From Pseudothioclava nitratireducens (lineage in GTDB: Bacteria > Pseudomonadota > Alphaproteobacteria > Rhodobacterales > Rhodobacteraceae), in NCBI RefSeq assembly GCF_029210495.1, contig NZ_JARGDK010000001.1:342010-406009 (forward strand): a DNA stretch of 64,000 nucleotides, in the 5' to 3' direction. Position numbers and translations under genes: made by a program. Each line of letters begins with the position of its first letter. Position 1 is the first letter of the stretch. The notes below the pieces were generated by a model. It did not search any database and was not told where the DNA came from. It saw only the letters and a list, made by a program, of their open reading frames with translations. Below, piece by piece: positions 1 through 15,054 of this stretch.

Positions 1-275
1 CGACCCTCCCCGTCAGCCTTACCATGGTGCGGGCGCTGCGCGATTACGGCGCGCGCACGGGGGCCAAGATCGGCTTCAAGCCAGCGGGCGGGCTCAAGAC
101 CGCCAAGGACGCGCTCAACTGGCAAATCCTGATGAACGAGGAGCTGGGCCGCGACTGGCTGCGCCCGGACCTGTTCCGTATCGGGGCGTCGTCGCTTCTG
201 GGCGATATCGAGCGCCAACTCGAACACCATGTCACCGGACGCTATGCGTCCTCCAGCCGCCATGCACTGGCCTGA
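1..275 (+). CDS. deoC: Deoxyribose-phosphate aldolase, C-terminal part (truncated by window edge)
   Basis: The reading frame enters from the left edge (first full codon at position 3) and ends with TGA at 273-275, so only about the last 90 residues are visible. The segment GFKPAGGLKTAKDAL is the DeoC signature that carries the second active-site lysine of this class I aldolase, which splits 2-deoxyribose 5-phosphate into glyceraldehyde 3-phosphate and acetaldehyde. The next gene begins 7 bases downstream and encodes an aldehyde dehydrogenase, which fits disposal of the acetaldehyde. Identification is firm from the motif; length and start cannot be judged. Confidence 0.9.
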   Translation, partial: TLPVSLTMVRALRDYGARTGAKIGFKPAGGLKTAKDALNWQILMNEELGRDWLRPDLFRIGASSLLGDIERQLEHHVTGRYASSSRHALA

Positions 276-282
276 GGGAAAG

Positions 283-2625
283 ATGCCGACCGTGAAAGAG
301 ATCCTCGACAGCATGGATTATGGCCCCGCGCCTGAAAGCAGCGCCGAAGTCATGGGCTGGCTCGGCGCACGCGGCGCGTTCGGGCACTATATCGACGGGG
401 GCTTCACCACGCCTGCCGACACCTTCGCGACCGAGAATCCCGCGACCGGCGCGACGCTTGCGCAGATCAGTCAGGGCAGCGCCGAGGATGTCGCCCGTGC
501 GGTGGATGCCGCCCGCAAGGCACAGCCGAAATGGGCGAAGCTCTCGGGTCATCAGCGCGCGAAATACCTCTATGCGCTGGCCCGCAGCCTGCAAAAACGC
601 GCGCGCTTCCTCGCCGTGCTGGAAACCCTCGATAATGGCAAACCGATCCGCGAGAGCCGCGATGTCGATATCCCGCTCGCGATCCGGCATTTCTACCACC
701 ATGCCGGCTGGGCCGAGATGCTGGCGGACGAATTCCCCGGCCTCGCACCGCATGGCGTCTGTGGGCAGATCATCCCGTGGAACTTCCCGCTGCTGATGCT
801 CGCATGGAAGATCGCCCCCGCGCTGGCCGCCGGGAACACGGTCGTCCTCAAACCCGCCGAACAGACGCCGCTCACCGCGCTCGCCTTTGCCGAAATCTGC
901 GCCGAGATCGGCCTGCCCAAAGGCGTCGTGAACATCGTCACCGGCGACGGGCGCACGGGTGCTGCGCTCACCGCCGCGCCCGTGGACAAGATCGCCTTCA
1001 CCGGCTCGACCGAAATCGGCCGCGAGATCCGCCGTGCCACCGCTGGCAGCGGCAAGGCGCTGACGCTTGAACTCGGCGGCAAGTCGCCCTTCGTGGTCTT
1101 TGCCGATGCCGATCTCGACGCCGCCGTCGAAGGCGTCGTCGATGCGATCTGGTTCAACCAAGGCCAAGTCTGCTGCGCGGGGTCGCGCATCCTCGTGGCC
1201 GAGGCCGTCGCCAATACCTTCACCGAACGTCTGCAAACGCGGCTCTCGAAGCTCCGCGTCGGCGACCCGCTCGACAAATGCACCGATATGGGGCCGATCG
1301 TCTCGGCCACCCAACGGCAGCGCGTGGCCGCGCTGGTCAGCGCGGGCGAGGCGGCGGGCGCGACCCTTGTCCAATGCGAGGGGCAACTCCCCGCCGCGGG
1401 TCATTTCTTCGCCCCCGGTCTTTTGATCGGCGCGGACCCGGCCAACCCGGCGAGCACCGAGGAAATCTTCGGCCCCGTCGCCACGCTCACCACCTTCCGC
1501 ACCCCCGAAGAGGCCGTGCAACTGGCGAACAACACCCGCTACGGGCTGGCCGCCTCGATCTGGTCCGAAAACATCACCCTCGCCCTCGACATCGCGTCGC
1601 AGGTCAAGGCGGGGGTTATCTGGATGAACGGCACCAACCTTTTTGATGCGGGCGCAGGCTTTGGCGGCATGCGCGAGAGCGGCTTCGGGCGCGAAGGCGG
1701 GCGCGAGGGGATGCTCGCCTATCTGCGTGGGCCTTCGCCCAAACCCCGCCCCGAGGCGCAGGCAAGCTTCGACGCCGCCCCCCATCCCGGCGCGCCCGGC
1801 AAGGGCGATCCGGCCATCGACCGAACGCCCAAGCTCTATATCGGCGGCAAGCAGGCCCGGCCCGACAGCGGACAATCCTATCGCGTGACCGCCAAAGGCA
1901 CCGAGATCGGCCTCGCGCCGCTCGGGTCTCGTAAGGATATCCGCAACGCGGTCGAGGCCGCGCACAAGGCGTCCGGCTGGGGCAAAACCACCGGCCACAA
2001 CCGCGCGCAGGTGCTCTATTACCTCGCCGAGAACCTCTCCGCCCGGCAGCGCGAGTTCGAATCCCGTCTGCGCGAGATGGGCGCCAACCCGGCCGAGGCC
2101 GAAGCCACCATCGCGCGCGCTTTCTACTATGCCGCATGGGCCGACAAGTTCGACGGCGCGGTGAAATCGACCACGGGCAACATGGTGACGCTTGCGATCA
2201 ATGAACCCTTCGGGGTGATGGGCGTGGTCTGCCCCGATGACGCGCCGCTGCTGGGCTTTGCCTCGCTGGTGCTACCCGCGATTGCGATGGGCAACCGGGT
2301 CGTGGCCGTGCCCTCGGCCTCGATGCCACTGGCCGCGACCGATCTCTATCAGGTCTTCGACACCTCGGACCTGCCCGGCGGCGTGGTCAATATCGTGACC
2401 GGCCCCAAGGACGAACTGGCCAAGACCCTCGCCCAGCACGACGACGTGGCCGCAGTTTGGTATTGCGGCGAGGCCGAGGGTCGCACCATGGCCGAGGCTG
2501 AAAGCGCCGGGAACCTCAAGGCGACATGGACGATGAGCAACCGCGACTGGACCGACGCCCAAGGCCGCGATTTCCTCACCCGCGCCACGCAGGTCAAAAC
2601 GATCTGGGTGCCCTACGGCGCATAA
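283..2625 (+). CDS. Two-domain aldehyde dehydrogenase, ALDH16 type
   Basis: 780 residues, far longer than the usual ~490 of ALDHs. Residues 1 to about 490 form a full ALDH domain with general base Glu263 (LELGGKSP) and nucleophile Cys297 (GQVCCAGSR). From about 525 a second ALDH-like half follows (KLYIGGKQ onward) that keeps the fold signature but has no recognisable GQxC nucleophile segment, so it is probably structural. This arrangement is that of the ALDH16 family, whose bacterial members keep the cysteine. The ATG at 283 is preferred over 229 because GAGGGA lies just before it and it clears deoC. Placement after deoC suggests oxidation of acetaldehyde from deoxyribose catabolism; the substrate is inferred. 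Confidence 0.85.
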   Translation: MPTVKEILDSMDYGPAPESSAEVMGWLGARGAFGHYIDGGFTTPADTFATENPATGATLAQISQGSAEDVARAVDAARKAQPKWAKLSGHQRAKYLYALARSLQKRARFLAVLETLDNGKPIRESRDVDIPLAIRHFYHHAGWAEMLADEFPGLAPHGVCGQIIPWNFPLLMLAWKIAPALAAGNTVVLKPAEQTPLTALAFAEICAEIGLPKGVVNIVTGDGRTGAALTAAPVDKIAFTGSTEIGREIRRATAGSGKALTLELGGKSPFVVFADADLDAAVEGVVDAIWFNQGQVCCAGSRILVAEAVANTFTERLQTRLSKLRVGDPLDKCTDMGPIVSATQRQRVAALVSAGEAAGATLVQCEGQLPAAGHFFAPGLLIGADPANPASTEEIFGPVATLTTFRTPEEAVQLANNTRYGLAASIWSENITLALDIASQVKAGVIWMNGTNLFDAGAGFGGMRESGFGREGGREGMLAYLRGPSPKPRPEAQASFDAAPHPGAPGKGDPAIDRTPKLYIGGKQARPDSGQSYRVTAKGTEIGLAPLGSRKDIRNAVEAAHKASGWGKTTGHNRAQVLYYLAENLSARQREFESRLREMGANPAEAEATIARAFYYAAWADKFDGAVKSTTGNMVTLAINEPFGVMGVVCPDDAPLLGFASLVLPAIAMGNRVVAVPSASMPLAATDLYQVFDTSDLPGGVVNIVTGPKDELAKTLAQHDDVAAVWYCGEAEGRTMAEAESAGNLKATWTMSNRDWTDAQGRDFLTRATQVKTIWVPYGA

Positions 2626-2629
2626 AGCA

Positions 2630-2654
2630 GCACGCCGCTAGCTACGCGGCGTGC
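2630..2654. terminator. Hairpin between convergent genes
   Basis: A perfect 9-bp stem GCACGCCGC / GCGGCGTGC with a 7-base loop lies between the ALDH16 stop and the 3' end of the minus-strand operon, overlapping the latter's stop codon. There is no strong T-run on either side, so it may act as a weak or factor-assisted bidirectional terminator or as an mRNA 3'-end stabiliser. Confidence 0.5.
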
Positions 2655-3192
2655 AATACTCCTTCACATAGGTCTCGTAGTCCTGAACGAGCCCCGCGAC
2701 TTTCGGCTCAAGCTCTGGCCCCTCGAAGGCAAAGATAAATTCGTCCCGCCATTCGTAGTAATGGGTCGTGCCATCGTTGCGCGGAGAGGGCTGTGTCTCG
2801 CCCGATGGCGGGCGCAGGATCGAGCGCTCTTGCCGGACCCGAGCCCCCTCGCGCATCTCGAACCCGATGATCGCGAAGCCATGGCCCTCCGGCCCCTTTG
2901 CCAGCGGCGAATAGGCGTATTTCATCCCCGGCCGCAGCTTGTCCTCGCGCGGGCTGGCATCGGCCATGTCGAACTGAAACACGGTCCACAGCACCCAGCC
3001 CTGCTCGGGCAGATCGCGCCAGCGATAGGTCGTCATCTGGCAGCCCTCGACCTCGGCCTCCAGACGCTCATCCTGATAGGCATGCTTCACGCCCGCCTCG
3101 ATGGCGCGCGCCAGATCCTCTTGCGGACCCGCCAGCGCGGACCCGCCGCCGACCCCCATCAGCGCGGCGGCCACCCAAAATACCGCTTTCAT
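2638..3192 (-). CDS. Exported protein of unknown function (operon end)
   Basis: 184 residues beginning MKAVFWVAAALMGVGGGSALAGP, a typical Sec signal peptide with a cleavage site near AxA at about 20. The start at 3192 is chosen because it overlaps the stop of the upstream gene as ATGA and gives the signal peptide directly. The mature part is soluble, with several Trp/Tyr residues and two cysteines (EGCQ, EYCTPRS) that could form a disulfide. I recognise no family. It is the last gene of an eight-gene operon, so it may be the periplasmic partner of the membrane proteins encoded just upstream. Confidence 0.8.
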   Translation of the reverse strand: MKAVFWVAAALMGVGGGSALAGPQEDLARAIEAGVKHAYQDERLEAEVEGCQMTTYRWRDLPEQGWVLWTVFQFDMADASPREDKLRPGMKYAYSPLAKGPEGHGFAIIGFEMREGARVRQERSILRPPSGETQPSPRNDGTTHYYEWRDEFIFAFEGPELEPKVAGLVQDYETYVKEYCTPRS

Positions 3193-3863
3193 TTCCGGGG
3201 TTTCCCCTTCCACGTGCCAAGCCAGCCCTTGAACCGGCCCCAGACGCCCCGCACCTCGTCGCCCGCCGCGTCAGCCCGGCTTTCGACCTCGTCCCAAGCC
3301 TCGCCCATATCCTCCAGAACCGGGTCGATGGAGCGTTCCTTGAACTGGCGCAGCATGGCGCGGATGGTCAGAATGATGACCAGCAGGATCACCAGCAGGA
3401 TGATGTTCACCCACGGGATGATCGTCACATCCGGCCCCTCGACCTCACGGATGCCAATCGCGTTCGGGAAAATCGAGAACAACTCCGAGCGCCAGCCGTA
3501 ATGCGTCACCACCGCCCAGACCGGCGCCTCGCGCGAGGAGCGCAGGTCATCCGCCTCGGTCTGAAGGCTCGCCGTGTCGAACTTGAAATAGGGCGGCCAG
3601 CCCCAGCCGGTATCCTCGTTGCGATAGACCATCGGATCGCCATTCGCGCGCACCGTCTGGATGAACTGCACGTCGCGGTTCACCAGCGTGCCCGACTGAT
3701 CGTCCGGCGAGGACCAGAAGATCCGCGTCCAGTCGCCCAGATCCTGCCGCTCCTGATACGTGCCGACGACGCGCACGATGTCATGCTGGGGCAGCGTGTA
3801 ATGCAGGAAGCTGCCCACGATGAGCACGATCAGCGCCAGAAAACCCCATTTCACATATCTCAT
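3189..3863 (-). CDS. DUF1523 family membrane protein
   Basis: 224 residues. One N-terminal transmembrane segment (about 7-25), a large Trp/Asp-rich extracytoplasmic region (about 30-145), a second very hydrophobic segment (about 148-168, runs of I/L/V), then a charged cytoplasmic tail of about 55 residues with acidic and basic helices. The features match the DUF1523 family as I know it from Rhodobacteraceae; function is unknown. GAGG precedes the ATG, and the stop overlaps the next start by 4 bases. Context suggests it anchors or senses for the AAA+ ATPase module of this operon, which is inference. Confidence 0.8.
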   Translation of the reverse strand: MRYVKWGFLALIVLIVGSFLHYTLPQHDIVRVVGTYQERQDLGDWTRIFWSSPDDQSGTLVNRDVQFIQTVRANGDPMVYRNEDTGWGWPPYFKFDTASLQTEADDLRSSREAPVWAVVTHYGWRSELFSIFPNAIGIREVEGPDVTIIPWVNIILLVILLVIILTIRAMLRQFKERSIDPVLEDMGEAWDEVESRADAAGDEVRGVWGRFKGWLGTWKGKPRK

Positions 3864-3870
3864 GACAGCC

Positions 3871-4152
3871 TCACGAACTGAAATTCATCACATAGAGCAG
3901 AATACCGAACAGACAGATCGGCACGATCACCACAAGCCAGATCAGCTTGCGCCTCAGGCTGCCCTCATAAGCGGCCAGCCCATCCTCGACAAAGGCCTCG
4001 CGCGGGCCGGGTTGCTGCCCCTCCGCAACCGCCTTGTCCCAGTCCTTCTCCAGCGCCTCGCGGCGCAGCGAACGCATGTAGATCAGCATCAGCCAATAGG
4101 CGAGCGTCAGCCCGATCAGCCCCACGATCATCAGCCGCGCAAACCCGATCAT
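3871..4152 (-). CDS. Small membrane protein, unknown function
   Basis: 93 residues with two transmembrane helices (about 3-24 and 66-86) separated by a charged loop of about 40 residues rich in Arg, Lys and Glu, so both ends probably face the same side. Start 4152 is used because ATG overlaps the stop of the upstream DUF6638 gene (ATGA) and removes an unlikely polar extension. No family recognised. It lies 7 bases upstream of the DUF1523 gene and is clearly co-transcribed with it. Confidence 0.75.
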   Translation of the reverse strand: MIGFARLMIVGLIGLTLAYWLMLIYMRSLRREALEKDWDKAVAEGQQPGPREAFVEDGLAAYEGSLRRKLIWLVVIVPICLFGILLYVMNFSS

Positions 4153-5522
4153 CGCTGCCCCCCGATCCGGCCCCACGGGCCCACGATATCCACCACATCG
4201 CGCGACGGCTTCACCTGACGCGCGGGCCGCCCGCCCGCCTCGGCGGCTTCCATCGACGGTTCGGGGCCAAACAGCGCCTCGCGCGTGCCCGCCTTGTCGA
4301 TCTGATATTCGCGCTCAAGGAAGTCCGCGACATAGGCGCGCTTGGCATCGGGCCAGGTCGCGTAAAGCCGGTAGAACAGCTCCTTGTGACAGATAAAAAG
4401 CTGGCGCACATCGAGCGGGCTCAACTCTGCCAGAAGCATGTTCACAAGGTCCTTCTGCGGCGTCTGCGCGGCGCGCAGCGTGTAGAAGTAAGCCGGGTGG
4501 CGGCTGTCGATCCGGGGCCACGGCCCGCCCGCCTCTTTCCAGCGCAACAGCGCCGCAAGCGCGTGGAACTCGGCAGGCAGCCGCTCGCCCAGACGCTGCG
4601 CCACCATCCGCAGGTCGCGCCGCGTGCCCGCACCGGTCTCAAGACCCAGTTCCGCCGCCGCCTCGACCAGAATGAAATCCATCTTCTGACGCAGGATCGC
4701 ACCCACATCAGCCCCGCCCGCGCTCACGATCGGCTCGACCAGCCCGTTCAACTCAAGGAATTTCGCAATCTCGTTGCGCTGCGTGCCGCTGAACACATAG
4801 CGGATCGGCAACGCACCCAGCACCTCGCGCTCGCCCATGCAGATCGCCGCCGGATGCGGCACCGAGCGGAACAGATAGACCCCGCCGAAATGCGCGGTCC
4901 AGAAATCCTCGGTCTCGAACCGGGTCGAGCGCAGCGTGACCGGGTTGCGCGTCACATCGCCCGTGCGCTTGGCCAGCGAAATCATGTCCGCGATCAGCAC
5001 ATCGTCGAACCACGCGTCCGGCTCTGCGCGGAACCGCTCGATCAGCCCCGTGAGCTTCTCCGACTCCGCCACATGATTGCCGGTCGTATCGGCCACCACC
5101 ACCATCCGGTGAATGTCAAAGAGCCGCCGTGGATCGCTCAGGTCATAGACCGTGTCCTCCAGCTCTCCGGCCACCGCATCGCGCGCCGTGAGGCTGAAAA
5201 GCTGCGCCTCATTGGCCTCGATGAACGCGCGCAGGATCGCCCGCTCCATCGAGAATTTCGCGTTGAGCAGCGGGCTGTTCTTCTGCTCGGTCGAGAGCAG
5301 GATGAACTGCCGGTTCACGCCATTGGGGTTGAGATAGAGATGATCGCCCAACTCGTCGCCGATCTCGGGGCTATAGCCCGAAATGTCGATATGGAACTCC
5401 GTCTGCGCGGTCCGGGGCTTGCCAAGATGCGCCAGCGCCCGGTTATAGCGTTCGACCAGCGCGGGCGCATCCACCCGCACCAGATTGCCGAACATCAGTC
5501 CCTTTTCGATCAGGCGTTTCAT
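4149..5522 (-). CDS. DUF6638-type cytoplasmic protein
   Basis: 457 residues, no signal peptide or membrane segment. The N-terminal third includes FHIDISGYSPEIGDELGDHL and a segment on asparagine-containing coils; the middle has YVFSGTQRNEIAKFLELN and a helical C-terminal part ending in a polar, basic tail. I associate it with the Rhodobacterales family DUF6638 from memory, without certainty; no catalytic motif is evident to me. A GGGACG ribosome site precedes the ATG. It is embedded in the operon between a small membrane protein and the next small membrane protein (9 bases from its upstream neighbour), so a role with the AAA+ ATPase is likely but not shown. Confidence 0.7.
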   Translation of the reverse strand: MKRLIEKGLMFGNLVRVDAPALVERYNRALAHLGKPRTAQTEFHIDISGYSPEIGDELGDHLYLNPNGVNRQFILLSTEQKNSPLLNAKFSMERAILRAFIEANEAQLFSLTARDAVAGELEDTVYDLSDPRRLFDIHRMVVVADTTGNHVAESEKLTGLIERFRAEPDAWFDDVLIADMISLAKRTGDVTRNPVTLRSTRFETEDFWTAHFGGVYLFRSVPHPAAICMGEREVLGALPIRYVFSGTQRNEIAKFLELNGLVEPIVSAGGADVGAILRQKMDFILVEAAAELGLETGAGTRRDLRMVAQRLGERLPAEFHALAALLRWKEAGGPWPRIDSRHPAYFYTLRAAQTPQKDLVNMLLAELSPLDVRQLFICHKELFYRLYATWPDAKRAYVADFLEREYQIDKAGTREALFGPEPSMEAAEAGGRPARQVKPSRDVVDIVGPWGRIGGQR

Positions 5523-5531
5523 CGCGTCCCG

Positions 5532-5840
5532 TTACGCCCCTTTCTTCTTCTCAGCCCAGACCCGGCCCAGCTTGGCCAGCACCGAGAACACCAGCACCGG
5601 CACGAAGGACAGGATATAGATCGCTCCGAACACTTCCCGCGGGGTGTTGCCGCCCCGGCACTCGCCCTGCCCGAAGAAGTCGAGCATGAACCCCAGCCCG
5701 CAATTCGTCGCCGCCCCGTAAAAGGCGGGCACCAGAACGCCCAGCGGGATCACCACCAGCATCTTGCCCCAGCTGTTCTTCGACAACCAGAACCCGATCA
5801 GCAGGCAGATGATAAGCAGAAAGGCCAAAAAGGAATTCAT
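5532..5840 (-). CDS. Small integral membrane protein, unknown function
   Basis: 102 residues, mostly hydrophobic: a first helix at about 3-19, a second at about 27-45 and a third at about 72-90, ending in a basic tail (AKLGRVWAEKKKGA). Two cysteines, in TNCGLG and GECRGG, flank the middle and may form a disulfide. ATG overlaps the stop of the AAA+ ATPase gene by 4 bases, so translation is probably coupled. No family recognised. Confidence 0.75.
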   Translation of the reverse strand: MNSFLAFLLIICLLIGFWLSKNSWGKMLVVIPLGVLVPAFYGAATNCGLGFMLDFFGQGECRGGNTPREVFGAIYILSFVPVLVFSVLAKLGRVWAEKKKGA

Positions 5841-7789
5841 GTCTTGCTCTCCAGATAGCGCCGCCGGGCTTCCTCGGTGCGGCCCATGTCGCGCACCATG
5901 CCCTCGATCGCGGCCTCGTCGGATTTGTCCGCGTAGCGGAACTCGCTGTCGGCATAGCGGTTGATCTCCTGAATGACCATCTCGACCGTGATCGGGCGGC
6001 GCAGCTCCGAGATCATCGCGGCCTTCTCGTCATAGGGTTTGAACAGGAACAGATCCGGGTTCTCCATCCACTCATCGGGCAGCTCGAAATCCATCGCGCG
6101 CACCTTCACCGCGTCCGTAATGTTCTTGATCGCGCGCCCCGTGAAGCGCTCATCCGCCTCCTGGATCGCCTTGAGATAGGCGCCGAGCCTGGCGATCGTA
6201 TCAAGCGGCCCGACACGCTCCTGCACCGCGTCAAAGACCCGGATCAGCCCACCCTCCTGCGGGCGGTTATGCCCCTCGAAGCTCTTGGCGACCGCGCGCT
6301 GGATCTGCTGCGCGGCGTATAGCTCGTGATCGCCCAGCGGGATGTCGTGCTTCTTGCCCAAGAGCAGCGCGAGGATGTCGATGTAATCCTCGCGGCTCTG
6401 CGGCCCGTCCACGAGGAACCGCGCCCCCGCCCGCTGACGCAGCGCATCGTCCACATTCTCCGGGTAGTTCGAGAACATCCCAAAGGTGCAGTTCCCGCGC
6501 ACCACCGTATTCGCGCCCGCAAAGGCCTCCATGAAGACCGCCGTCACCTCCTGCTGCCCCGCCGAGGACTGCCGGTCGCCGCGCTTGCCCGCGATCTGGT
6601 CGATATCGTCAATCGTGCCAAACCCGATCACACCCGGATCAAGCACATTCTGGATAAACGCCTTGGCGTTCTGCCCCGACTTGCCCTGATAGCTGTCGAT
6701 ATTGTCGATGCCGAAATTCTGGTAGCGGAACGGATAGCCCGCGACCTGACAATAGTCGTTTAACAGCCCCGCCATCATCTGGATCAGCGTGGTCTTGCCG
6801 GTACCGGGCTTGCCGTCGCCCATGAAAGTAAAAATGAACCCGCCCAGTTCCGCGAACGGGTTCAGCTTGCGCTCGAAGTCATAGGCCATGAGCATCTTGG
6901 CCAGCCGCATCGCCTGATATTTGGCGATATGGTTGCCGACCACCTCATGGGGCTTCTTGAACTGCATCGTCAGCGTCGTGCCGCGCGCCTTGCGGGCGGG
7001 CGCAAAGCCCGCGATTGGCAGGTCATCCGCCTCGACACGCCACGCCGCGCCAGTGAACGCCCCGATCCGCGGCGCCGCCTCGCCCCGCAGCCGGACCTTG
7101 TCCATCAGCGCCTCGGCATAGGCCAGAACCACCGCCACCAGCGTCTCGTCACTATCCGCCAAAAGCGCCACGTCCTGATCGAGTTCCCACAGCGCGCCAT
7201 GCAACGCAAGGATCGGATTGTCGGTCAGAACCTCCTCGACCTCACCGATCTCGACCGAGACCTCACCCGCATGAGGCGCCAGCAAGAACGCCGTCGCATT
7301 GCCGAAAACAGACAGCACCGCCAACGCCTCGGCACTCAGCAACTCGCCGAATTCCGCGCGCTTCATATCGGGCAGACGCCCCTCCAGATTGGCGCGCTTC
7401 AACTCGACCAGCCCGGTCGCCTCCGCCACCGCCTCGCCCACCGCCAGCGCAATCGCAATCGCGCGCCGCAGGCTTTGCAACACCACCGCCTGCGCAGGCG
7501 TCGGCAGATCGTCCGCGCCCACCGCCTCGATCCGGTCGGCCAGCCGCACCCCCTCGGGCCGTGCGGTCGAACGTGTCACCAGCCCCGGCGTGGTCGAGCG
7601 GAACCGCCGCCCCGTCGCCGTCACACCGCCTGTGCTCACACCGGGCGAGCGCTCCTTCGGCGGCTCCACCGCCTGTGCCTTGGCCAGACGCGGCGCATGA
7701 TCCACCCCCGACAGCATCCCCGCGGCCGCCGCGTAATGCGCCCGGATCGCCTCTTCCCGCAATTCCATCTCGTCGCGCGGTGCACTCAT
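5837..7789 (-). CDS. AAA+ ATPase of unknown role
   Basis: 650 residues. The first ~290 residues are a unique helical region with no motif I know. The AAA+ core follows: Walker A GKPGTGKTT at about 326-334, Walker B-like FGTIDDIDQIAG at about 390-402, then SNYPENVDDALRQRAGARF at about 440-460, which looks like a sensor 1/arginine-finger segment. It therefore should be an oligomeric ATP-driven remodeller, loosely MoxR- or classic-AAA-like. Ribosome site GAAGG precedes the ATG. It sits after a predicted coiled-coil protein and an unknown protein, and before membrane proteins whose genes overlap it. Substrate unknown. Confidence 0.85.
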   Translation of the reverse strand: MSAPRDEMELREEAIRAHYAAAAGMLSGVDHAPRLAKAQAVEPPKERSPGVSTGGVTATGRRFRSTTPGLVTRSTARPEGVRLADRIEAVGADDLPTPAQAVVLQSLRRAIAIALAVGEAVAEATGLVELKRANLEGRLPDMKRAEFGELLSAEALAVLSVFGNATAFLLAPHAGEVSVEIGEVEEVLTDNPILALHGALWELDQDVALLADSDETLVAVVLAYAEALMDKVRLRGEAAPRIGAFTGAAWRVEADDLPIAGFAPARKARGTTLTMQFKKPHEVVGNHIAKYQAMRLAKMLMAYDFERKLNPFAELGGFIFTFMGDGKPGTGKTTLIQMMAGLLNDYCQVAGYPFRYQNFGIDNIDSYQGKSGQNAKAFIQNVLDPGVIGFGTIDDIDQIAGKRGDRQSSAGQQEVTAVFMEAFAGANTVVRGNCTFGMFSNYPENVDDALRQRAGARFLVDGPQSREDYIDILALLLGKKHDIPLGDHELYAAQQIQRAVAKSFEGHNRPQEGGLIRVFDAVQERVGPLDTIARLGAYLKAIQEADERFTGRAIKNITDAVKVRAMDFELPDEWMENPDLFLFKPYDEKAAMISELRRPITVEMVIQEINRYADSEFRYADKSDEAAIEGMVRDMGRTEEARRRYLESKT

Positions 7790-7831
7790 CCGCCTTCACC
7801 CTTTCATCAAACGCCCAAACCTCTCGCGCGT

Positions 7832-7852
7832 CCGGGGGCAGACAGCCCCCGG
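7832..7852. other. Hairpin inside the AAA+ operon
   Basis: A perfect 7-bp GC stem (CCGGGGG / CCCCCGG, loop CAGACAG) lies in the 75-base gap between the 7865-9001 gene and the AAA+ gene. No T-run follows it on the minus strand, so a full terminator is unlikely; partial attenuation or an RNA processing/stability element would adjust expression of downstream genes. Confidence 0.45.
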
Positions 7853-7864
7853 CGCACCGGGCGC

Positions 7865-9001
7865 CTATCCGTAAACCATCACCCGCTCATGCGCGCCGAC
7901 CACGAATTTGCGCACATCCCTGAAACCGGCCGGGTCCTTTTCCGCCAACACCTGAAACGGGCGCTGCGGCAGGATGATCGCACGGCTCATCCGCGTGGCC
8001 CCGGTCTCCGCCGCCCGTGCGCCCAGCGGGTCGAGGTCGAACACCTCCCGCTCGGTCGCACTGAACCAGCCCTTCTCCATCTCGACACGGGTGCTTTCCA
8101 GCTCCTCGACGGTCCATGCGAGCGCCCAATCCTCGCCCACCGGCGCCTTCGCCTCGTCAAGCACCTCGCGGATCGGCCCGGTCTGAAGCGTGAACGCGTT
8201 GGAATACATCGGCCCCAGATGGATGCGCCGCAGCCGTTTCGGATGCAGATCGTCGAAATCCGTATCGAACCCCTTGCCAATAGTAATGAGCTTCAGCCCC
8301 CCCACCGACTGCGCCATCAGATGCGCCTTGACCCGCTCCCAGCGCCCCTCGTCGCGCGGCAGCGCGCGGCGCCCGCTGTCTTCCAGCTCCATGATATAGA
8401 CCACGGGCACGTTGAGTTGCGTGTCGTAGATCGCCCAATGGATCACAAAGCGCCGCCGCTCTCCCATCTCCGGCCCCGGCAGCGCCACCGGATGCATCTG
8501 CGCCCAGAACAGCCGCTGCGGATCATGCGCCAGCGCCTCGTAATAGAGCCGCTGACTCATCGCATATTGCAGGTCCGTCGGAATCTCGCGCGCGCCGACG
8601 ATCTGGCGCACCATCTGATCGCGCAGCTCGTCCGCGCTCGCCATGCCGGCCAGATGCTGATGCGCCTGCGCCGCGTCATTCGCCATCGAGACCAGCTCCT
8701 GATAGATCGGAAAGCCGCTCTCATGGAGGTCAATCGTCAGGTGCCGCCGCGCAGGGCCAACAACCCGGCCCGAAACCAGATACTTCATCGACAGTGCCTT
8801 GAAGCTCCCGGCGATGGCGTTGAAATAGCCCATCAGGATGCCCGCATCGCTGGAACTCAGCGCGCGGTCCATCTCCATCTCCTGCGCCACATGGCCAAGG
8901 ATCCGCGTGATCCGCTCGAACTTGGCGAAGTAACGCCGCGCCGCCAGATCGTCCTTGATCGCATGATGGTCCTTGGTCAGATCGACCTTGGCGTCACTCA
9001 T
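7865..9001 (-). CDS. Conserved-looking cytoplasmic protein, unknown function
   Basis: 378 residues, no signal peptide or membrane helix. The N-terminal part is helical (residues 1-140, with MEMDRALSSSDAGILMGYFNAIAG); the central part has beta-like segments (RRFVIHWAIYDTQLNVPVVYIMELED) and the C-terminus ends KFVVGAHERVMVYG. No catalytic motif recognised. A clear AAGGACG ribosome site precedes the ATG. It is gene 2 of the minus operon, 51 bases after the coiled-coil gene and 75 before the AAA+ ATPase, so it may be an adaptor or substrate for that ATPase; this is inference only. Confidence 0.7.
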   Translation of the reverse strand: MSDAKVDLTKDHHAIKDDLAARRYFAKFERITRILGHVAQEMEMDRALSSSDAGILMGYFNAIAGSFKALSMKYLVSGRVVGPARRHLTIDLHESGFPIYQELVSMANDAAQAHQHLAGMASADELRDQMVRQIVGAREIPTDLQYAMSQRLYYEALAHDPQRLFWAQMHPVALPGPEMGERRRFVIHWAIYDTQLNVPVVYIMELEDSGRRALPRDEGRWERVKAHLMAQSVGGLKLITIGKGFDTDFDDLHPKRLRRIHLGPMYSNAFTLQTGPIREVLDEAKAPVGEDWALAWTVEELESTRVEMEKGWFSATEREVFDLDPLGARAAETGATRMSRAIILPQRPFQVLAEKDPAGFRDVRKFVVGAHERVMVYG

Positions 9002-9052
9002 CGGCCCGTCCTTTCAGCCCGGAACCGGGGCGCACCGCCGCGCCCCGCCCCG

Positions 9053-10129
9053 TCAGCCGCCATAGAGGTTCTTGTCGTGCTTCTCGACAATCGCCTGAAA
9101 GCGCCGCGCGAACCGTTCGTCGGCCTTGGCCTTCTGCTCCAGAACCTTGCGGGCAAAGACCATGTGGCCCTCATGCGCCTCCAGCATCTCGGCCATCTTC
9201 GCATTGGTCGCGGCCCCGATGCCCGCCATGGCGGTCTGCGCCTCCTGGTCGGTCTGCACCCCGATCTCGTTGATCCGGTGCGCCACATCCTGCTGCTGCG
9301 CGGTTTTCAGCGACTTGGTCAGCGCATCGTAAAGCACCACGCGCTGCTGCGTATCGGTGCGCAGCTTGTTGATCAGCACCATCTGCGTTGCCGCCTGGTT
9401 TTGCAAACTGTCGACCCAGGTCTTGCCCTTCTCGATATAGCGCTCCAGCGTCTGCGACTTGGCAAGCTTCACCTGCTCGTCCTGCACCAGCGCGTTATAT
9501 TTCACGTTCAGATCGGCGAGCTCGGTTTCCAGCTTGGTGCGCGCCGCCGCGTCCTGCTCGACCGCGATCTTGTTCTCCAGCTCGATGATCTTCGGGTCCA
9601 TCCCAAGGATCTCCGCACGCAGCCCCTCCAGATCGCCGACCGTGAACTCACGCTCATCAAGCGTGCCCTTGAGGTTCGTCTCGACCTTGACCTTCTGCTC
9701 CTCCAGCACCGCCAACTGCCCTTCGAGCAGCTTCACGATGGTGTCCGATTTGGCGATCAGGTCCTGCAATTTCGTGTCGATCGAGGCCGCCCGCAGACGC
9801 TCCGCCCGCATCGATTCCGACTTCCCCTTGGCGAAAATGCCGACAAAGCTCTCCCAACCGGTTTTCGACCGCAACTCATCGAAATCCTTGGAGAACCCCG
9901 CCGTCACATCGTCGAGCCCCATGATCAGTTCCGCGATGTTCGCGTTCATCGCCTCGGAATGGGCCTGCACATCGGCAAGGCTCGCATTTTCGATATCGAG
10001 CGCGATGTCCTGACCCGCATCCATCTTGCTTTTCGCGGCCTCGATGCGGCTGGTAATCTCGGAAATCCGCGCCTGTGCCTCGGCAACCTGCTTCTGGCTC
10101 TCGGCGATCTGGGTGTCAAAACCGGCCAT
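9053..10129 (-). CDS. Coiled-coil protein, TelA/PspA-like in architecture
   Basis: 358 residues, almost entirely amphipathic helix with heptad-like spacing: helices at about 1-45, 60-85, 105-160, 180-235 and 240-350, and very few prolines. A GFxKDFDELRSKTGWESF segment near 80 is the only non-coil stretch. The layout recalls TelA (toxic anion resistance) and phage-shock type scaffolds, but I see no diagnostic motif, so this is only an architectural resemblance. Start 10129 is chosen over 10141 because GGAGGG sits 4 bases upstream. As first gene of the eight-gene operon it probably follows the operon promoter in 10130-10277. Confidence 0.75.
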   Translation of the reverse strand: MAGFDTQIAESQKQVAEAQARISEITSRIEAAKSKMDAGQDIALDIENASLADVQAHSEAMNANIAELIMGLDDVTAGFSKDFDELRSKTGWESFVGIFAKGKSESMRAERLRAASIDTKLQDLIAKSDTIVKLLEGQLAVLEEQKVKVETNLKGTLDEREFTVGDLEGLRAEILGMDPKIIELENKIAVEQDAAARTKLETELADLNVKYNALVQDEQVKLAKSQTLERYIEKGKTWVDSLQNQAATQMVLINKLRTDTQQRVVLYDALTKSLKTAQQQDVAHRINEIGVQTDQEAQTAMAGIGAATNAKMAEMLEAHEGHMVFARKVLEQKAKADERFARRFQAIVEKHDKNLYGG

Positions 10130-10277
10130 CGGGCCCTCCAATGTTAATCCTATTTACTATCTGGGAAGCCCTCACCCGTTTGTGAAGTCCCATCTTGCGA
10201 AAAAGCTAACCAAATCATGCGCGCAGCACCACTGCTTTCGCATGGACGGCGCGATTTCGGGGCGCTAGCCTCACCCA

Positions 10278-11558
10278 ATGGATTTGAACGACCGCATCCG
10301 GCACGAAATAGAGGCGCGGCGCGACGATCTGATCGCGCTGACGCAGGACCTGATCCGCATCCCGACGCTGAACCCGCCGGGGCGGCACTATCACGACATC
10401 TGCGCCTATCTCGAAACGCGCCTGCTCGCGAGCGGCTTCGAAACCGAGATGATCCGCGCCCATGGCGCGCCGGGCGATGCCGAGGCAACCCCGCGCTGGA
10501 ACCTCGTCGCCTGCCGCGAAGGCCGCGCGCCCGGCGAGTGCGTGCATTTCAACTCGCATCATGACGTGGTCGAAGTCGGCCATGGCTGGACCCGTGACCC
10601 CTTCGGCGGCGAACTGGACGGCGACCGCATCTACGGGCGCGGCGCGTGCGACATGAAAGGCGGGCTCGCCGCCTCGATCATCGCCGCCGAAGCCTTCATC
10701 GCCGCCTGCCCCGACTATCGCGGCGCCATCGAAATCTCTGCTACCGCCGACGAGGAAACCGGCGGCTATGGCGGCGTCGCCTATCTCGCGGAACGCGGCT
10801 ATTTCGACCCGGCCCGCGTGCAGCATGTCATCATCCCCGAACCGCTCCACAAGGATCAGATCTGCCTCGGCCATCGCGGCGTGTGGTGGGCCGAGATCGA
10901 AACCCATGGCCGCATCGCCCATGGCTCGATGCCGTTTCTGGGGGACTCCGCCATCCGCCACATGGGCGCGGTGCTGGCCGAGATGGAAGAAACCCTGTTC
11001 CCGCTCCTCCTTGGCAAACGCACCGAAATGCCGGTGATCCCCGAAGGCGCGAAACAAAGCACGCTCAACATCAATTCGATCCATGGCGGCGAGGCCGAGC
11101 AGGCGCCGGGCTATACCGGCCTGCCCGCCCCGGTGGTCCCCGACCGCTGCCGCATCGTGATCGACCGCCGCTTCCTGATCGAGGAACAGATCGACGAGGT
11201 CAAAGCCGAAATCACCGCGCTCATGGAGCGCGTCAAGGCGCGGCGCCACAACTTCACCTACGAGATCCGCGACCTGTTCGAGGTCCAGCCCAGCATGACC
11301 GACCGCGACGCCCCCATCGTGCGCTCCACCGCCAGCGCCATCGAAGCCGTGCTCGGGCGCGAGGCCGCCTATGTCGTCAGCCCCGGCACCTATGACCAGA
11401 AGCATATCGACCGGATCGGGCGGCTGAAGAACTGCATCGCCTATGGGCCGGGCCTGCTCGCCCTCGCGCATCAGCCCGACGAATGGGTGGGGGTGCAGGA
11501 CATGCAGGACAGTGCCCGCGTGATGGCCTTGGTGCTGGCCGAACTGCTCGGCCTCTAG
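10278..11558 (+). CDS. M20 family metallopeptidase (ArgE/DapE-like)
   Basis: 426 residues. Zinc-site motifs of the family are in order: HFNSHHDVV near 95, GRGACDMKGG near 120-130 (bridging Asp), ADEETGG near 158 (Glu base and ligand) and IIPEP near 187. A dimerisation domain is inserted in the middle. It should hydrolyse an N-acyl or amide bond; family members include acetylornithine deacetylase and succinyl-diaminopimelate desuccinylase, but the exact substrate cannot be read from sequence. The gene stands alone, divergent from the AAA+ operon, with a 148-base shared upstream region and a repeat-type spacer after it. Confidence 0.85.
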   Translation: MDLNDRIRHEIEARRDDLIALTQDLIRIPTLNPPGRHYHDICAYLETRLLASGFETEMIRAHGAPGDAEATPRWNLVACREGRAPGECVHFNSHHDVVEVGHGWTRDPFGGELDGDRIYGRGACDMKGGLAASIIAAEAFIAACPDYRGAIEISATADEETGGYGGVAYLAERGYFDPARVQHVIIPEPLHKDQICLGHRGVWWAEIETHGRIAHGSMPFLGDSAIRHMGAVLAEMEETLFPLLLGKRTEMPVIPEGAKQSTLNINSIHGGEAEQAPGYTGLPAPVVPDRCRIVIDRRFLIEEQIDEVKAEITALMERVKARRHNFTYEIRDLFEVQPSMTDRDAPIVRSTASAIEAVLGREAAYVVSPGTYDQKHIDRIGRLKNCIAYGPGLLALAHQPDEWVGVQDMQDSARVMALVLAELLGL

Positions 11559-11579
11559 GGGCGCTGCCCCTCGGCGCTT

Positions 11580-11700
11580 GCGCGCCTCACCCCGGGATAT
11601 TTGAAGCGATTGGAAGCGCAAACCGTCTTGGGTTCCAATCGCGCGAAATATCCTCGGGGGTGAATTGGCGCCAGCCAAGAGGGGGCAGACAGCCCCCTTC
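11580..11700. repeat. Inverted intergenic repeat, GGATATTT family (type A tail)
   Basis: Two oppositely oriented copies of the local repeat face each other between convergent genes: left arm ACCCCGGGATATTT plus AGCGATTGGAA (about 11588-11614) and right arm TTCCAATCGC plus AAATATCCTCGGGGGT (about 11632-11661). A further hairpin GGGGGC/GCCCCC lies at about 11680-11697. The whole could fold into a long cruciform or RNA stem and probably serves as bidirectional terminator between the M20 peptidase and panC. Confidence 0.65.
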
Positions 11701-11710
11701 GCTCGCGTTG

Positions 11711-12550
11711 TCACACGGCGATATTGTCGATCAGGCGCACATCGCCCAGCCAAGCGGCGGCCAGAAGTCGTGCGGGTTCCGAGAGGTCGGTGGCGGGGCG
11801 CAGCCCATCCACCGTGCGCAGTTCGAGATATTCGACCGCGCCAAAGCCGCCGGCCGTGATCGCGCGGGTCGCGGCCTCCAGCGCCACGGCCACCGGGGTG
11901 CCCGCGCGCATCGCCTCTGCCGCCTTTTGCATCTCGGCATGGAGCACCGGCGCCTGCGCGCGTTCCGCCGGGCTGAGCCGCACATTGCGCGACGACATCG
12001 CCAGCCCGTCCTCCTCGCGGATCGTCGGGCAGCCGATGATCCGGGTCGCAATGTTGAGGTCCTCGACCAACCGTTTGACGACCTGCAACTGCTGCCAGTC
12101 CTTTTCACCGAAGAAGGCGCGCCCCGCCTGCGTCATGCCGAAGAGCTTGGAGACCACGGTCGCCACCCCGTCGAAATGGCCGGGCCGCATCGCGCCTTCC
12201 AGCGGTTCCGAGACGCCGCCGACCGTCACCTTGGTCGCAAAGCCCTCGGGATAGACCTCATCGACGCCCGGCGCGAAGAGCACATCGACGCCTTCGGCCT
12301 CAAGAAGCGCCAGATCATGCGCCTCGTCGCGCGGGTATTTGTCGAGATCGGAGGCGTTGTTGAACTGCATCGGGTTGACAAAAATGGTCACGATCACCCG
12401 GTCCGACTGCCCACGCGCGGCCCGCGCAAGGCTCAGGTGCCCGTCATGGAGCGCCCCCATCGTCGGCACCACACCCACCAGCATTCCCGAGCGTTTCCAC
12501 GCCGCCACCTTCTCGCGCAGCTCGGCGGAGGTCCGGATCACTTCGGTCAT
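11711..12550 (-). CDS. panC: Pantothenate synthetase
   Basis: 279 residues, the usual length. Signature segments are present: [14 protein letters not shown] (nucleotide-binding HxGH-like motif, ~29-42), FVNPMQF, and the KDWQQL/SSRN pair around 150 and 187. It joins pantoate and beta-alanine with ATP to give pantothenate, the coenzyme A precursor, in the cytoplasm. ATG overlaps the panB stop (ATGA), so panB-panC is a coupled operon covering the pantoate branch. Confidence 0.95.
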
Positions 12551-13371
12551 TTTTTCACCTCATCGGCAAAGACATGTTCGGGCGCCGGAAACGTCCGGGC
12601 GCGCACTTCGGCGGCATAGGCGGCAATCGCGGCCTCGGCCTGCTCGCCCAGCGTGCCGAAGCGTTTGACGAATTTCGGTTTGAACGCGGTGAAGAGGCCA
12701 AGCATGTCATCAACCACCAGCACCTGCCCGTCGCAGCCCGCACTCGCGCCAATGCCGACCGTCGGGATCGCGACCTCGGCGGTTACCCGATCCGCCAACC
12801 CCTGCGGCACCTTTTCCAGCACCACCGAGAACGCGCCCGCCGCCGCCACGGCCTTGGCATCCGCCATCAGCCGCTCGCCATCGGCACCGCGCCCCTGCAC
12901 CTTGTAGCCGCCCAGCGTGTTGACCGACTGGGGCGTCAGACCCACATGCGCCATCACCGGGATACCGCGTTTGACGAGGAAGGCGATGGTCTCGGCCATA
13001 TGCTGCCCACCTTCGAGCTTGACCGCCCCCGCGCCCGTCTCGCGCATCAGCCGCGCGGCATTGCGAAACGCCTGCTCGGGACTTTCCTCGTAGCTGCCGA
13101 AGGGCATGTCGATGACCATCAGCGCCTGTTTGAGGCCCCGCGCCACCGCCTGCCCGTGCAGGATCATCATGTCCATCGTAACGCCCACGGTCGAGGGCAG
13201 CCCATGGAGCACCATCCCCACCGAGTCCCCCACCAGCACCAGATCGACATGCGCATCCATCATCGCTGCCATCGGCGTGGTGTAGGCGGTCAGGCACACG
13301 ATCGGCGCGCCGCCCTTCCTGGCCAAGATATCCGCGGGCATCAGCTGCCGCGCCTGTCCGGTTGCACTCAT
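12547..13371 (-). CDS. panB: 3-methyl-2-oxobutanoate hydroxymethyltransferase
   Basis: 274 residues starting [10 protein letters not shown]; the open frame extends further upstream but GGAGGCG just before 13371 fixes this start. TIM-barrel family with metal-binding [10 protein letters not shown] near 45-54, KLEGG near 115, and [12 protein letters not shown] near 134. It makes ketopantoate from alpha-ketoisovalerate and methylene-tetrahydrofolate. First gene of panBC; the 210 bases upstream separate it from a divergent binding-protein gene and should hold both promoters. Confidence 0.95.
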
Positions 13372-13581
13372 CAGCGCCTCCTCTCTCCCTTGGGCACAGG
13401 CATAGCCGCCCGGCCCCCATGACGCAAAGATAATTACGCCGCAGCGCAGCACCACGGGGGAGATTTGCGCGCCCTTTCCCCCTTTTCGACGCAGCGTCAT
13501 TTGCCTTGATCCAAGGGGGGATCGGGTCAATCATGTGATCCGACAGGCTGTTACGCCCCATTGCCACAGGGAGGCACACCG

Positions 13582-15054
13582 ATGACCTATCGCCTTTGGA
13601 CCACCGCCGCAGCGCTTGCGTTTCTGGCCGGCCCCGCGCTGGCCGCGCAGGACAGCATCACGCTTGGCATGGTGCTGGAGCCGCCGAATCTCGACCCGAC
13701 CGCAGGGGCCGCCGCCGCTATTGACGAGGTGGTCTATGCCAATCTCTTCGAAGGCCTGACCCGGTTCGGCCCCGATGGCTCGGTGCGCCCGGCGCTCGCC
13801 GAAAGCTGGGATCTGAGCGAGGATCAGCTCACCTATACCTTCCATCTGCGCACGGGCGTCACCTTCCACGATGGCACGGGCTTCGATGCGGAGGACGTGA
13901 AATTCACGCTCGACCGCGCCCGCGCCGAGGACAGCGCCAACGCGCAGAAGGCGCTCTTTGCGGGGATTACCGATGTGCGTGTGGTGGACCCGCAAACGGT
14001 CACCGTGACACTCTCCGCGCCCGATGGCGCGTTTCCGTTCAAGATGGCTTGGGGCGATGCCGTCATCGTCGCACCCGAAAGCGCCGCCGATCTTGCGACA
14101 AAACCCGTTGGCACCGGCCCCTTCACCTTCGCAGAGTGGGTGCAGGGCGATCATGTGACCCTCTCCGCCTATGAGGGCTATTGGGGCCAGCCGCCCGAGA
14201 TCGCCACCGCCACCTTCCGCTTCATCTCGGACCCGACGGCGGCCTTTGCGGCGATGATGGCGGGCGATGTCGATGCCTTCCCGAACTTCCCCGCGCCCGA
14301 AACCCTTGTGCAATTGGAGGCCGATCCCCGCTTCAAGGTGATCGTCGGCTCGACCGAGGGTGAGACGATCCTCGCGATGAACAACCGCCTCGCGCCGCTC
14401 GACAACCCGCTCGTCCGGGAGGCGGTTGCGCACGCGATCAACCGGCAGGACGTGATCGACGGGGCGATGTTCGGCTATGGCACGCCGATCGGCACCCATT
14501 TCGCCCCGCACAACCCCGATTACGAAGACCTGACCGCGCTTTCGGCCTATGACCCCGACAAGTCCCGCGCGCTTCTGGCCGAGGCGGGGGTAACGGACCT
14601 CAAGCTGCGCCTCGCGCTGCCGCCCCCCACCTATGCGCGCCGGGGCGGCGAGATCATCGCCGCCCAACTGGCCCAAGTCGGCATCCAGACAGAGATCACC
14701 AATCTCGAATGGGCCGGCTGGCTGGAAACCGTGTTCAAGGGCCGCGATTTCGACCTCACCATTGTGAGCCATACCGAACCCGCCGACATCAACATCTACG
14801 CCCGCGATGACTATTATTTCGGTTATGCGAAGCCCGAATTCGTGGCGCTGATGGAAGAACTCGGACGCACCTCCAATGCCGAACAACGCTCGGCGCTCAA
14901 TCGCACCGCCCAGCGTATGATCGCCGAGGATTTCGTGAACGGCTACCTGTTCCAGCTTGCGAAAACCGGGGTCGCCAATGCCAGGATCGAAGGGCTTTGG
15001 GAAAACGCGCCGACGCAGGCCAATGACCTGACCGCCGTCAAATGGGTCGAGTAA
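13582..15054 (+). CDS. ABC transporter substrate-binding protein, peptide/opine type (SBP_bac_5)
   Basis: 490 residues with a Sec signal peptide (MTYRLWTTAAALAFLAGPALA, cleavage near 22) and a GGGAGG ribosome site. The mature protein shows the family-5 pattern: EPPNLDPTAG, ANLFEGLTRF, ESWDLSEDQLTYTFHLRTGVTFHDG, and AVAHAINRQDVI. It should capture an oligopeptide or similar solute in the periplasm. No permease is next to it; the nearest dipeptide-type permease/ATPase set starts at 17790 and lacks its own binding protein, so the two probably form one importer split by two minus-strand genes. Confidence 0.88.
   Translation: MTYRLWTTAAALAFLAGPALAAQDSITLGMVLEPPNLDPTAGAAAAIDEVVYANLFEGLTRFGPDGSVRPALAESWDLSEDQLTYTFHLRTGVTFHDGTGFDAEDVKFTLDRARAEDSANAQKALFAGITDVRVVDPQTVTVTLSAPDGAFPFKMAWGDAVIVAPESAADLATKPVGTGPFTFAEWVQGDHVTLSAYEGYWGQPPEIATATFRFISDPTAAFAAMMAGDVDAFPNFPAPETLVQLEADPRFKVIVGSTEGETILAMNNRLAPLDNPLVREAVAHAINRQDVIDGAMFGYGTPIGTHFAPHNPDYEDLTALSAYDPDKSRALLAEAGVTDLKLRLALPPPTYARRGGEIIAAQLAQVGIQTEITNLEWAGWLETVFKGRDFDLTIVSHTEPADINIYARDDYYFGYAKPEFVALMEELGRTSNAEQRSALNRTAQRMIAEDFVNGYLFQLAKTGVANARIEGLWENAPTQANDLTAVKWVE

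Follow-up and report, generated by a model that had tools for sequence, protein, structure and literature searches.

The window analysed here, a stretch of 64,000 nucleotides (nt) from Pseudothioclava nitratireducens (Rhodobacteraceae; contig NZ_JARGDK010000001.1, positions 342,010 to 406,009), carries eight minus-strand genes at 2638-10129, all co-directional and named A-B-C-D-E-F-G-H in their order of reading. Comparison with related loci revealed a conserved four-gene module around an AAA+ ATPase (A-B-C-E), an adjoining membrane locus to which F and G belong, and, between C and E, a junction of which the content is exchanged between close species. The features of the locus are listed below, with transmembrane abbreviated as TM and open reading frame as ORF.

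10130..10277, no strand: divergent intergenic region between A and a plus-strand peptidase ORF, the expected place of a promoter
9053..10129, minus strand: gene A, 358 amino acids (aa), nearly all coil, soluble; heads the operon
9002..9052, minus strand: A-B junction, a second variable site; 51 nt and empty in the window
7865..9001, minus strand: gene B, 378 aa, soluble, without known family
5837..7789, minus strand: gene C, AAA+ ATPase of 650 aa
5532..5840, minus strand: gene D, 102-aa protein with three TM segments; occupant of the C-E slot in the window genome
5523..5836, minus strand: C-E slot, from the stop of C to the start of E, 314 nt in the window
4149..5522, minus strand: gene E, DUF6638 protein of 457 aa
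3871..4152, minus strand: gene F, 93 aa, two TM segments; resident membrane module
3189..3863, minus strand: gene G, DUF1523 protein of 224 aa with two TM segments either side of a central domain; resident membrane module
2638..3192, minus strand: gene H, 184 aa, signal-like N-terminal segment
2654-2630, minus strand: terminator-like hairpin where H ends, GC-rich and with a short T-rich tail (consensus scan)

Read from A to H, the intergenic gaps are 51, 75, -4, 9, -4, 7 and -4 nt, in agreement with the three ATGA overlaps and the gaps of 7-75 nt given by the original prediction, which had been made from the letters of the window. Its domain calls were borne out by Pfam: AAA+ in C, DUF6638 in E (E-value 4.8e-215, 714.9 bits against a cut-off of 27) and DUF1523 in G (1.9e-72, 242.8 bits against 23). 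At the curated cut-offs A, B, D, F and H of the window matched no Pfam family, an NCBIfam scan of the eight proteins gave no confident addition, and PHROGs returned weak AAA-type matches for C and one weak match for G. A hydropathy scan recovered the two small membrane proteins that had been claimed, with three TM segments in D and two in F, together with two segments in G, a single N-terminal hydrophobic segment in H and two hydrophobic stretches within C. The hairpin at the end of H is weak evidence for the end of the operon, because seven sites of this type were observed in the region and 3.9 were expected from shuffles. No match to the sigma-70 consensus was found at 2500-10400 of the window, nor any Rfam family at its gathering score at 1-14000.

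In a tblastn map of the first relatives the order was A-B-C-(variable)-E-F-G, and C was detected in 14 of 41. A first set of loci was fetched because they hold B, C or E and yielded 36 contiguous loci besides the window (the contig fragments L026 and L029 of one genome fall outside this number, and G610, one of 26 genomes with B, was not fetched). The order A, B, C, E was identical in all 36, one of which, G353, belongs to another class. F was undetected in 12 of these loci (G235, G551 and ten rhizobia-like genomes of the group f160) and G in the ten rhizobia-like genomes. A second set of named genomes comprises the best 80 matches of a longer list, nearly all Rhodobacteraceae plus two Halomonas, and three of its loci duplicate loci of the first set; the full A-B-C-(D)-E-F-G arrangement was present in 73, six loci were cut by contig ends and one had C alone. 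In addition, C was found in ten records of a plasmid collection (Sinorhizobium, Shinella, Rhizobium and Vibrio), and the A-B-C-E order was confirmed in three of them, S. meliloti AK57, V. parahaemolyticus and V. vulnificus. The two Vibrio records gave no match to F or G and have mfd directly after E; the V. parahaemolyticus proteins are 40% (A), 29% (B), 38% (C) and 27% (E) identical to those of the window.

B was present in 26 of 398 sampled genomes of the phylum, in 60 of 139 genomes of the family and in one of 369 sampled genomes of the class of G353, namely G353 itself. Phages yielded no relative of B at an E-value of 0.001 and none of C at 1e-20. Homologues of A are 41-91% identical across 35 aligned loci. 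Moreover, the pairwise distances of A, B, C and E intercorrelate at 0.72-0.80, as compared to 0.51-0.63 against F and G (91 loci, four dropped). Judged from gene order and protein similarity, A-B-C-E is a conserved module of four genes that extends from the Rhodobacteraceae to S. meliloti, Halomonas and Vibrio. Since the order is kept across genera and two classes, the operon arrangement lies far above chance, and the joint retention of A, B, the N-terminus of C and E in two classes makes it probable that the set forms one machine.

The ATPase C contains a Pfam AAA domain (PF00004) at residues 326-459 (E-value 9.7e-12). In the window its motifs are a Walker A GDGKPGTGKTT, a pore-loop-like YQGKS and a Walker B IDD. 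The Walker A pattern GDG.PGTGKT is intact in 114 of 114 loci and the DDID of Walker B was found in 113, the pattern being missed in one. DSYQGKS is present in 104 of the 114; S366-S371 are invariant in an alignment of 37 rows, and N441, R451, R453 and R457 are invariant in 37 C sequences, the three arginines being candidates for the arginine finger. The only relative in the PDB by sequence, with the C profile at an E-value of 0.001, was 5ubv, the ATPase domain of an i-AAA protease (1.4e-4), and the alignment places YQG on the pore loop YVG and TIDDID on FIDELD. By the latter pairing the catalytic Glu is replaced by Asp in C. We infer that C is a substrate-threading ring with altered hydrolysis. 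The Pfam scan of C gave AAA, AAA_19 and ABC_tran only, with no protease domain, and its N-terminus of about 300 residues matched no family. C shares the AAA domain, the Walker A and the aromatic pore-loop motif with the classical AAA+ remodellers (FtsH/i-AAA, Vps4, TRIP13), including a weak match to the TRIP13 profile (E-value 3.4e-4). It differs from them in the Asp in place of the Walker B Glu, in the N-terminus and in its four-gene setting, and from the FtsH/i-AAA proteases also in that no fused zinc protease domain was detected. The locus with C alone lies on a contig of a metagenome-assembled genome (L186, 9001-10935), where C is open and 73% identical to that of the window.

The junction between C and E shows another pattern. 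Over the pooled loci 95 of 111 C-E gaps measured 150 nt or more, whereas the E-F and F-G gaps reached this length in none of 98 each; the A-B gap did so in 48 of 110, mostly with small TM proteins, and the B-C gap in 9 of 112. Turnover was measured by DNA alignment, independently of ORF calls, in 38 congeneric pairs from ten genera, a non-exhaustive choice in which pairs within a genus are not independent; a Halomonas pair with a slot in neither member was left out. The C-E DNA was replaced in 34 of the 38 pairs and the A-B DNA in 15, as compared to 41 replaced segments over 261.6 kb of colinear flank, and a further nine lay within the genes B, E, F and G. For four pairs, three of Marivita and one of Defluviimonas, about 19 kb contained no replaced segment of 150 nt or more apart from the slot. 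In fact, Marivita C and E genes are 93-95% and 90-96% identical, yet five of six slot pairs have no DNA similarity. Inspected by eye, similarity ends at or very near the stop of C and restarts at the start of E. Slots of at least 600 nt (n = 53) have a median GC content 8.8 points below that of the core, and 21 of them lie more than 10 points below. As read from these alignments, the content of the C-E junction is replaced between close species, sister species included.

The original prediction had counted D as a member of the operon. The comparison makes D a replaceable occupant of the slot, which is not conserved; in the window it belongs to a 3-TM similarity cluster of five loci (four besides the window) with no detectable relation to the main 3-TM family. 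Overall, plus-strand ORFs of at least 70 aa were present in 79 of the 95 longer slots; these 99 ORFs form 50 similarity clusters, of which 35 have a single member. With longest-ORF tiling of both strands in the 80 named loci, 68 of 87 C-E ORFs lay on the plus strand and 19 on the minus strand, and of the codon-typical C-E ORFs all 40 were on the operon strand; the codon-usage filter was used for strand bias only, because it removed atypical cargo. The first C-E ORF overlaps the stop of C by 4 nt in 33 of 79 slots, an overlap that ORF extension favours. The start of a 3-TM cargo ORF in L157 (11012-11506) lies about 40 residues before that of its relative in L160, so that its true start is uncertain, and other cargo ORFs may have wrong starts as well.

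To characterize the cargo, 20 gap ORFs were chosen by hand as representatives for Pfam, and ten scored above the cut-off. The families found were AbiJ_NTD4, DUF3825, DUF559/MTES_1575, DUF2971, DUF433, PIN_10, Mrr, SLFN_AlbA_2 and RNase_T, with a Fic domain above cut-off in an ORF from the B-C gap; matches to HEPN/DUF4145 and HATPase remained below the cut-off. PADLOC concurs on the Mrr, DUF2971 and exonuclease cargo. Of ten flank genes drawn at random, nine fell into metabolic, transport or similar families and one matched DUF2333 (the gene after E); this control is biased, because the genes came from 589 ORFs pre-filtered for host-typical codon use. Among the small slot ORFs (up to 135 aa, n = 50), at least two TM segments were predicted for 37, and 40 of 45 A-B ORFs have at least one. 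In genomes with B, the best match to the 3-TM family was co-oriented with B and 1.9-3.0 kb behind it, at the slot position, in 16 of 16 cases, and a match to a 2-TM family lies there (by eye) in four of four, with three further genomes having the 2-TM match without B. A HATPase family, by comparison, was in the slot in one of three genomes with B and elsewhere in the other two. From these positions the membrane occupants look dedicated and at least one soluble cargo family generic. HEPN-like cargo matched in none of the 139 family genomes, in a search without a positive control. In L128 (10947-12094) the slot holds a gene for a DUF433 protein followed by one for a PIN_10 protein, a toxin-antitoxin-like pair inside the operon. 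The rhizobia-like slots (L072-L081) contain DUF559-type genes in six of ten and little else, in contrast to the variety in the Rhodobacteraceae.

Such cargo invites the explanation that A-B-C-E is the chassis of a conflict system, which senses a threat such as phage infection or envelope damage and, by ATP-driven remodelling, licenses the slot protein, a nuclease, an RNase or a small pore-like TM protein, as an exchangeable effector, with slot turnover as effector diversification. The Mrr, RNase_T, SLFN_AlbA_2, PIN_10 plus DUF433, DUF2971, AbiJ_NTD4 and DUF3825 cargo argues for it, together with the weak HEPN/DUF4145 matches, the mostly metabolic and transport-type flanks, the strand of the codon-typical ORFs, the 4-nt overlaps with the stop of C and the fixed position of the 3-TM and 2-TM families. 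However, the Pfam comparison sets hand-chosen gap genes against host-typical flank genes, slots can be short (below 150 nt in 16 of 111 loci) and the two Vibrio and two Halomonas loci are without cargo. The HATPase cargo is found outside the slot in two of three genomes with B, and the 3-TM family also belongs to a membrane module that stands alone (see below). In addition, PADLOC 2.0.0 gave nothing confident for the eight window proteins, the best matches being the one of C to TRIP13 and one of A to LmuB (E-value 0.0012). As some slots are empty and generic cargo is also found at other sites, the data do not call for an effector chassis, which we consider distinctly unlikely. Its widest form we regard as quite doubtful: here A-B-C-E would be an undescribed ATP-driven immune or stress chassis, and the position behind the ATPase gene an effector socket, coupled translationally and controlled by the ATPase, in which lineages swap nucleases, RNase-like HEPN proteins, kinase-like ATPases and small membrane proteins.

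The MoxR-vWA ternary systems and other conflict systems, as described in the accessible part of PMC7159879, likewise combine an AAA+ core with a variable position for defence-type genes; the window operon differs from them in that it has no vWA domain (none among its eight proteins at an E-value of 1), the effector is not fused to the core and the slot may be empty. Similarly, the core defence hotspots of Pseudomonas aeruginosa (PMC10250203, in the portion consulted) have conserved flanks and fast-changing content of defence type. The C-E slot differs in size, up to about 1.5 kb with few genes, and in position, being internal to a co-directional operon and flanked by two core genes that belong to a single module. 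Conserved flanks and turnover of defence-type cargo, by which such hotspots are recognized, are both present at the slot, with defence-type domains in part of the cargo.

The membrane part of the operon has a distribution of its own. DUF1523 is present in 122 of the 139 family genomes. All 60 genomes with B are among them: in 52 the two genes share a strand and are no more than 9 kb apart, and in the other eight DUF1523 is on a different contig. Eleven genomes that lack B contain a member of the 3-TM family; G follows the 3-TM gene in all 11, and F was detected between the two in seven. By this comparison 3TM-F-G is a resident membrane locus, which adjoins A-B-C-E in the Rhodobacteraceae. As 3TM-(F)-G occurs without the motor, A-B-C-E was either added to the resident locus or lost from it. 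In L200 (3TM-G) and L209 (3TM-F-G), both without A-B-C-E, the next gene is convergent and its N-terminus resembles, by eye, that of the convergent gene in the window, which suggests one ancestral site. In the window this gene (229-2625, on the gene H side) presumably encodes a double aldehyde dehydrogenase; on the gene A side (10278-13530) we take the plus-strand ORF beside gene A to be an ArgE-like peptidase, with putative panC/panB genes in the same stretch.

In rhizobia a different membrane protein gene is found next to the block. S. meliloti (L196) has the same A-B-C-E block with a DUF2333 gene directly after E, in place of F-G, and the gene after E also matches DUF2333 in L080. In Rhizobium leguminosarum pSK03 (L217, 7794-10148) an A-like gene (26% identity) stands immediately before DUF2333; C was not found on this record, nor B, C and E in the 16.8 kb fetched. 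The choXWV-thymidine kinase-fhs neighbourhood is common to pSK03 and the full set in S. meliloti. The adjacency in pSK03 indicates that a membrane protein adjoins the coil-rich protein also where the ATPase is lacking. The available parts of PMC10783040 and PMC5256989 give no function for DUF1523 and DUF2333, respectively.

These distributions bear on the proposal of the original prediction that a single machine is built from the AAA+ protein, the coil protein and the membrane proteins. Conservation of motor and coil partner as a set, and the presence of membrane products, uphold part of it. The single machine itself is not supported, as A-B-C-E occurs without detectable F or G in the two Vibrio, the ten rhizobia-like loci and S. 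meliloti (with DUF2333 instead), and 3TM-(F)-G occurs without the motor in all 11 inspected genomes lacking B. The gene for the supposed periplasmic partner, H, matched in no other locus searched; this reading is unsupported, because H is not conserved and F-G is separable. In terms of neighbourhood, D and H have no conserved place and the F-G link is kept in part, but A-B-C-E stays together.

A second rival explanation is that the C-E gap is a scar, the join of two transcription units at which insertions are tolerated without functional meaning, and that part of the slot signal stems from gene-calling in GC-rich DNA. It accords with the stand-alone 3TM-F-G locus, with the DUF559 genes in rhizobia-like slots, with the antisense ORFs that confuse gene calls at GC-rich loci and with the absence of a plus-strand ORF of 70 aa from 16 of the 95 longer slots. 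Nevertheless, the replacement was seen on DNA alignments and not on ORF calls, the larger slots stand out as foreign by their GC shift, and variation is also seen away from the join, at the A-B site (15 of the 38 pairs). We regard a neutral scar as rather improbable.

Against five PspA sequences A gave an hhalign probability of 2.1%, and against 16 TelA sequences 1.5%, by which both candidates were rejected; Snf7 was not compared. No PspA appeared in the Pfam results of window A, nor among the listed 25 of 47 weak families for 36 A members. A TelA gene is present separately on G000:C3. With a profile from the five PspA sequences, a PspA gene was found in one of 39 loci scanned. This sole match is the PspA_IM30 gene (E-value 5.4e-25) downstream of the operon of G551 (L071, about 3099-4790; L111), which is followed by a 94-aa ORF that we assume to be YiaA-like; the ORF between the operon and this gene is presumably TetR-like.

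Models were predicted for B (predicted local distance difference test score 87.7) and E (78.5). The B model had no match in the PDB or among viral structures at an E-value of 0.001, and the rows of a second look reached a Z of 5.0 or less (120 residues, root-mean-square deviation 3.9), and were not accepted; they look T-fold-like. The E model likewise had no PDB match at 0.001, with nothing above a Z of 4.8 in the second look. The missing fold matches of B and E do not show a new fold. An apparent fusion of E in L073 (831 aa) proved to be an artefact of ORF extension past a stop, and the row was excluded from alignment A8. The operon was not described in the literature searched, at the level of titles and abstract starts and mostly in open-access papers. 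We take S. meliloti SMc02733 to belong to its A-B-C-E operon from the presumed order of locus tags, an assignment not used as evidence. The gene is listed in a ChvI DNA-binding screen (PMC3687685, in the part consulted).

The third rival, in line with the original prediction, is an envelope-stress or membrane-remodelling machine of the phage shock protein (PSP) or ESCRT type, in which A would form polymers on the membrane, C would play the part of Vps4 and the membrane proteins would be stress sensors, with the slot incidental. The FtsH/i-AAA-like pore loop of C, the coil-rich partner and the linkage to 3TM-F-G or DUF2333 proteins are in line with it, as is the PspA_IM30 gene near the operon of G551. 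PSP loci with AAA+ partners are known, and PSP/PspA-AAA+ and ESCRT-III-Vps4 loci have a coiled-coil gene beside an AAA+ ATPase and membrane proteins (PMC11237479, as far as its accessible text goes). However, A has no profile similarity to PspA or TelA, PspA was missing from the weak Pfam families listed and its gene was found in just one scanned locus, and the Vibrio loci have mfd after E and no F or G match. In addition, B and E are outside the PSP families named in that text and A is not detectably PspA-like. On balance this type of machine seems fairly unlikely.

The explanation that we tentatively prefer, as quite possible though short of probable, is a composite operon: an ATP-driven remodeller of A, a membrane locus and a co-directional exchange slot. 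The modules and the turnover of the slot follow from comparison; from these we infer substrate, docking, co-transcription and function. C would be a hexameric ring of the classical AAA+ type that pulls substrate through its YQG pore loops, with hydrolysis slowed or altered by the Asp in place of the Walker B Glu. The coiled-coil protein A would be the substrate of this ring, and B and E may serve as adaptors. It would dismantle or cycle assemblies of A on the cytoplasmic side of the inner membrane, docked there by the 3TM-F-G proteins or, in rhizobia, by DUF2333. The slot would be a permissive, co-directional landing site for the exchange of accessory genes, of which many are of defence type or encode small membrane proteins, while E-F-G is retained.

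Several points weigh against this composite operon. The place of A as substrate derives from conservation and gene order, its description as a nearly all-coil soluble protein from sequence, and B and E matched no known fold and the N-terminus of C no family. The C-terminal tails of C change with the cargo in L129 and L142 (last codons), which could mean that cargo interacts with C. On the contig L186 no A, B, E, F or G was detected within 9 kb either side of C. As to the slot, four pairs show no replacement, namely the three Pseudorhodobacter pairs (all of that genus) and the window pair; 24 slots of 250-450 nt have no GC shift; and the short gaps and the longer slots without an ORF, counted above, as well as the 19 minus-strand ORFs, which may be real or spurious, belong here too.

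Whichever explanation applies, the C-E slot turns an operon of unknown role into a testable system, and the A-B-C-E set occurs in strains of S. meliloti and Vibrio. The separable modules, that is the motor set, 3TM-F-G, and A with DUF2333, constitute natural deletion experiments. In marine alphaproteobacteria the slot marks a place to search for new defence or toxin genes, and it raises the question of how genes are swapped at one operon junction while both neighbours stay nearly unchanged.

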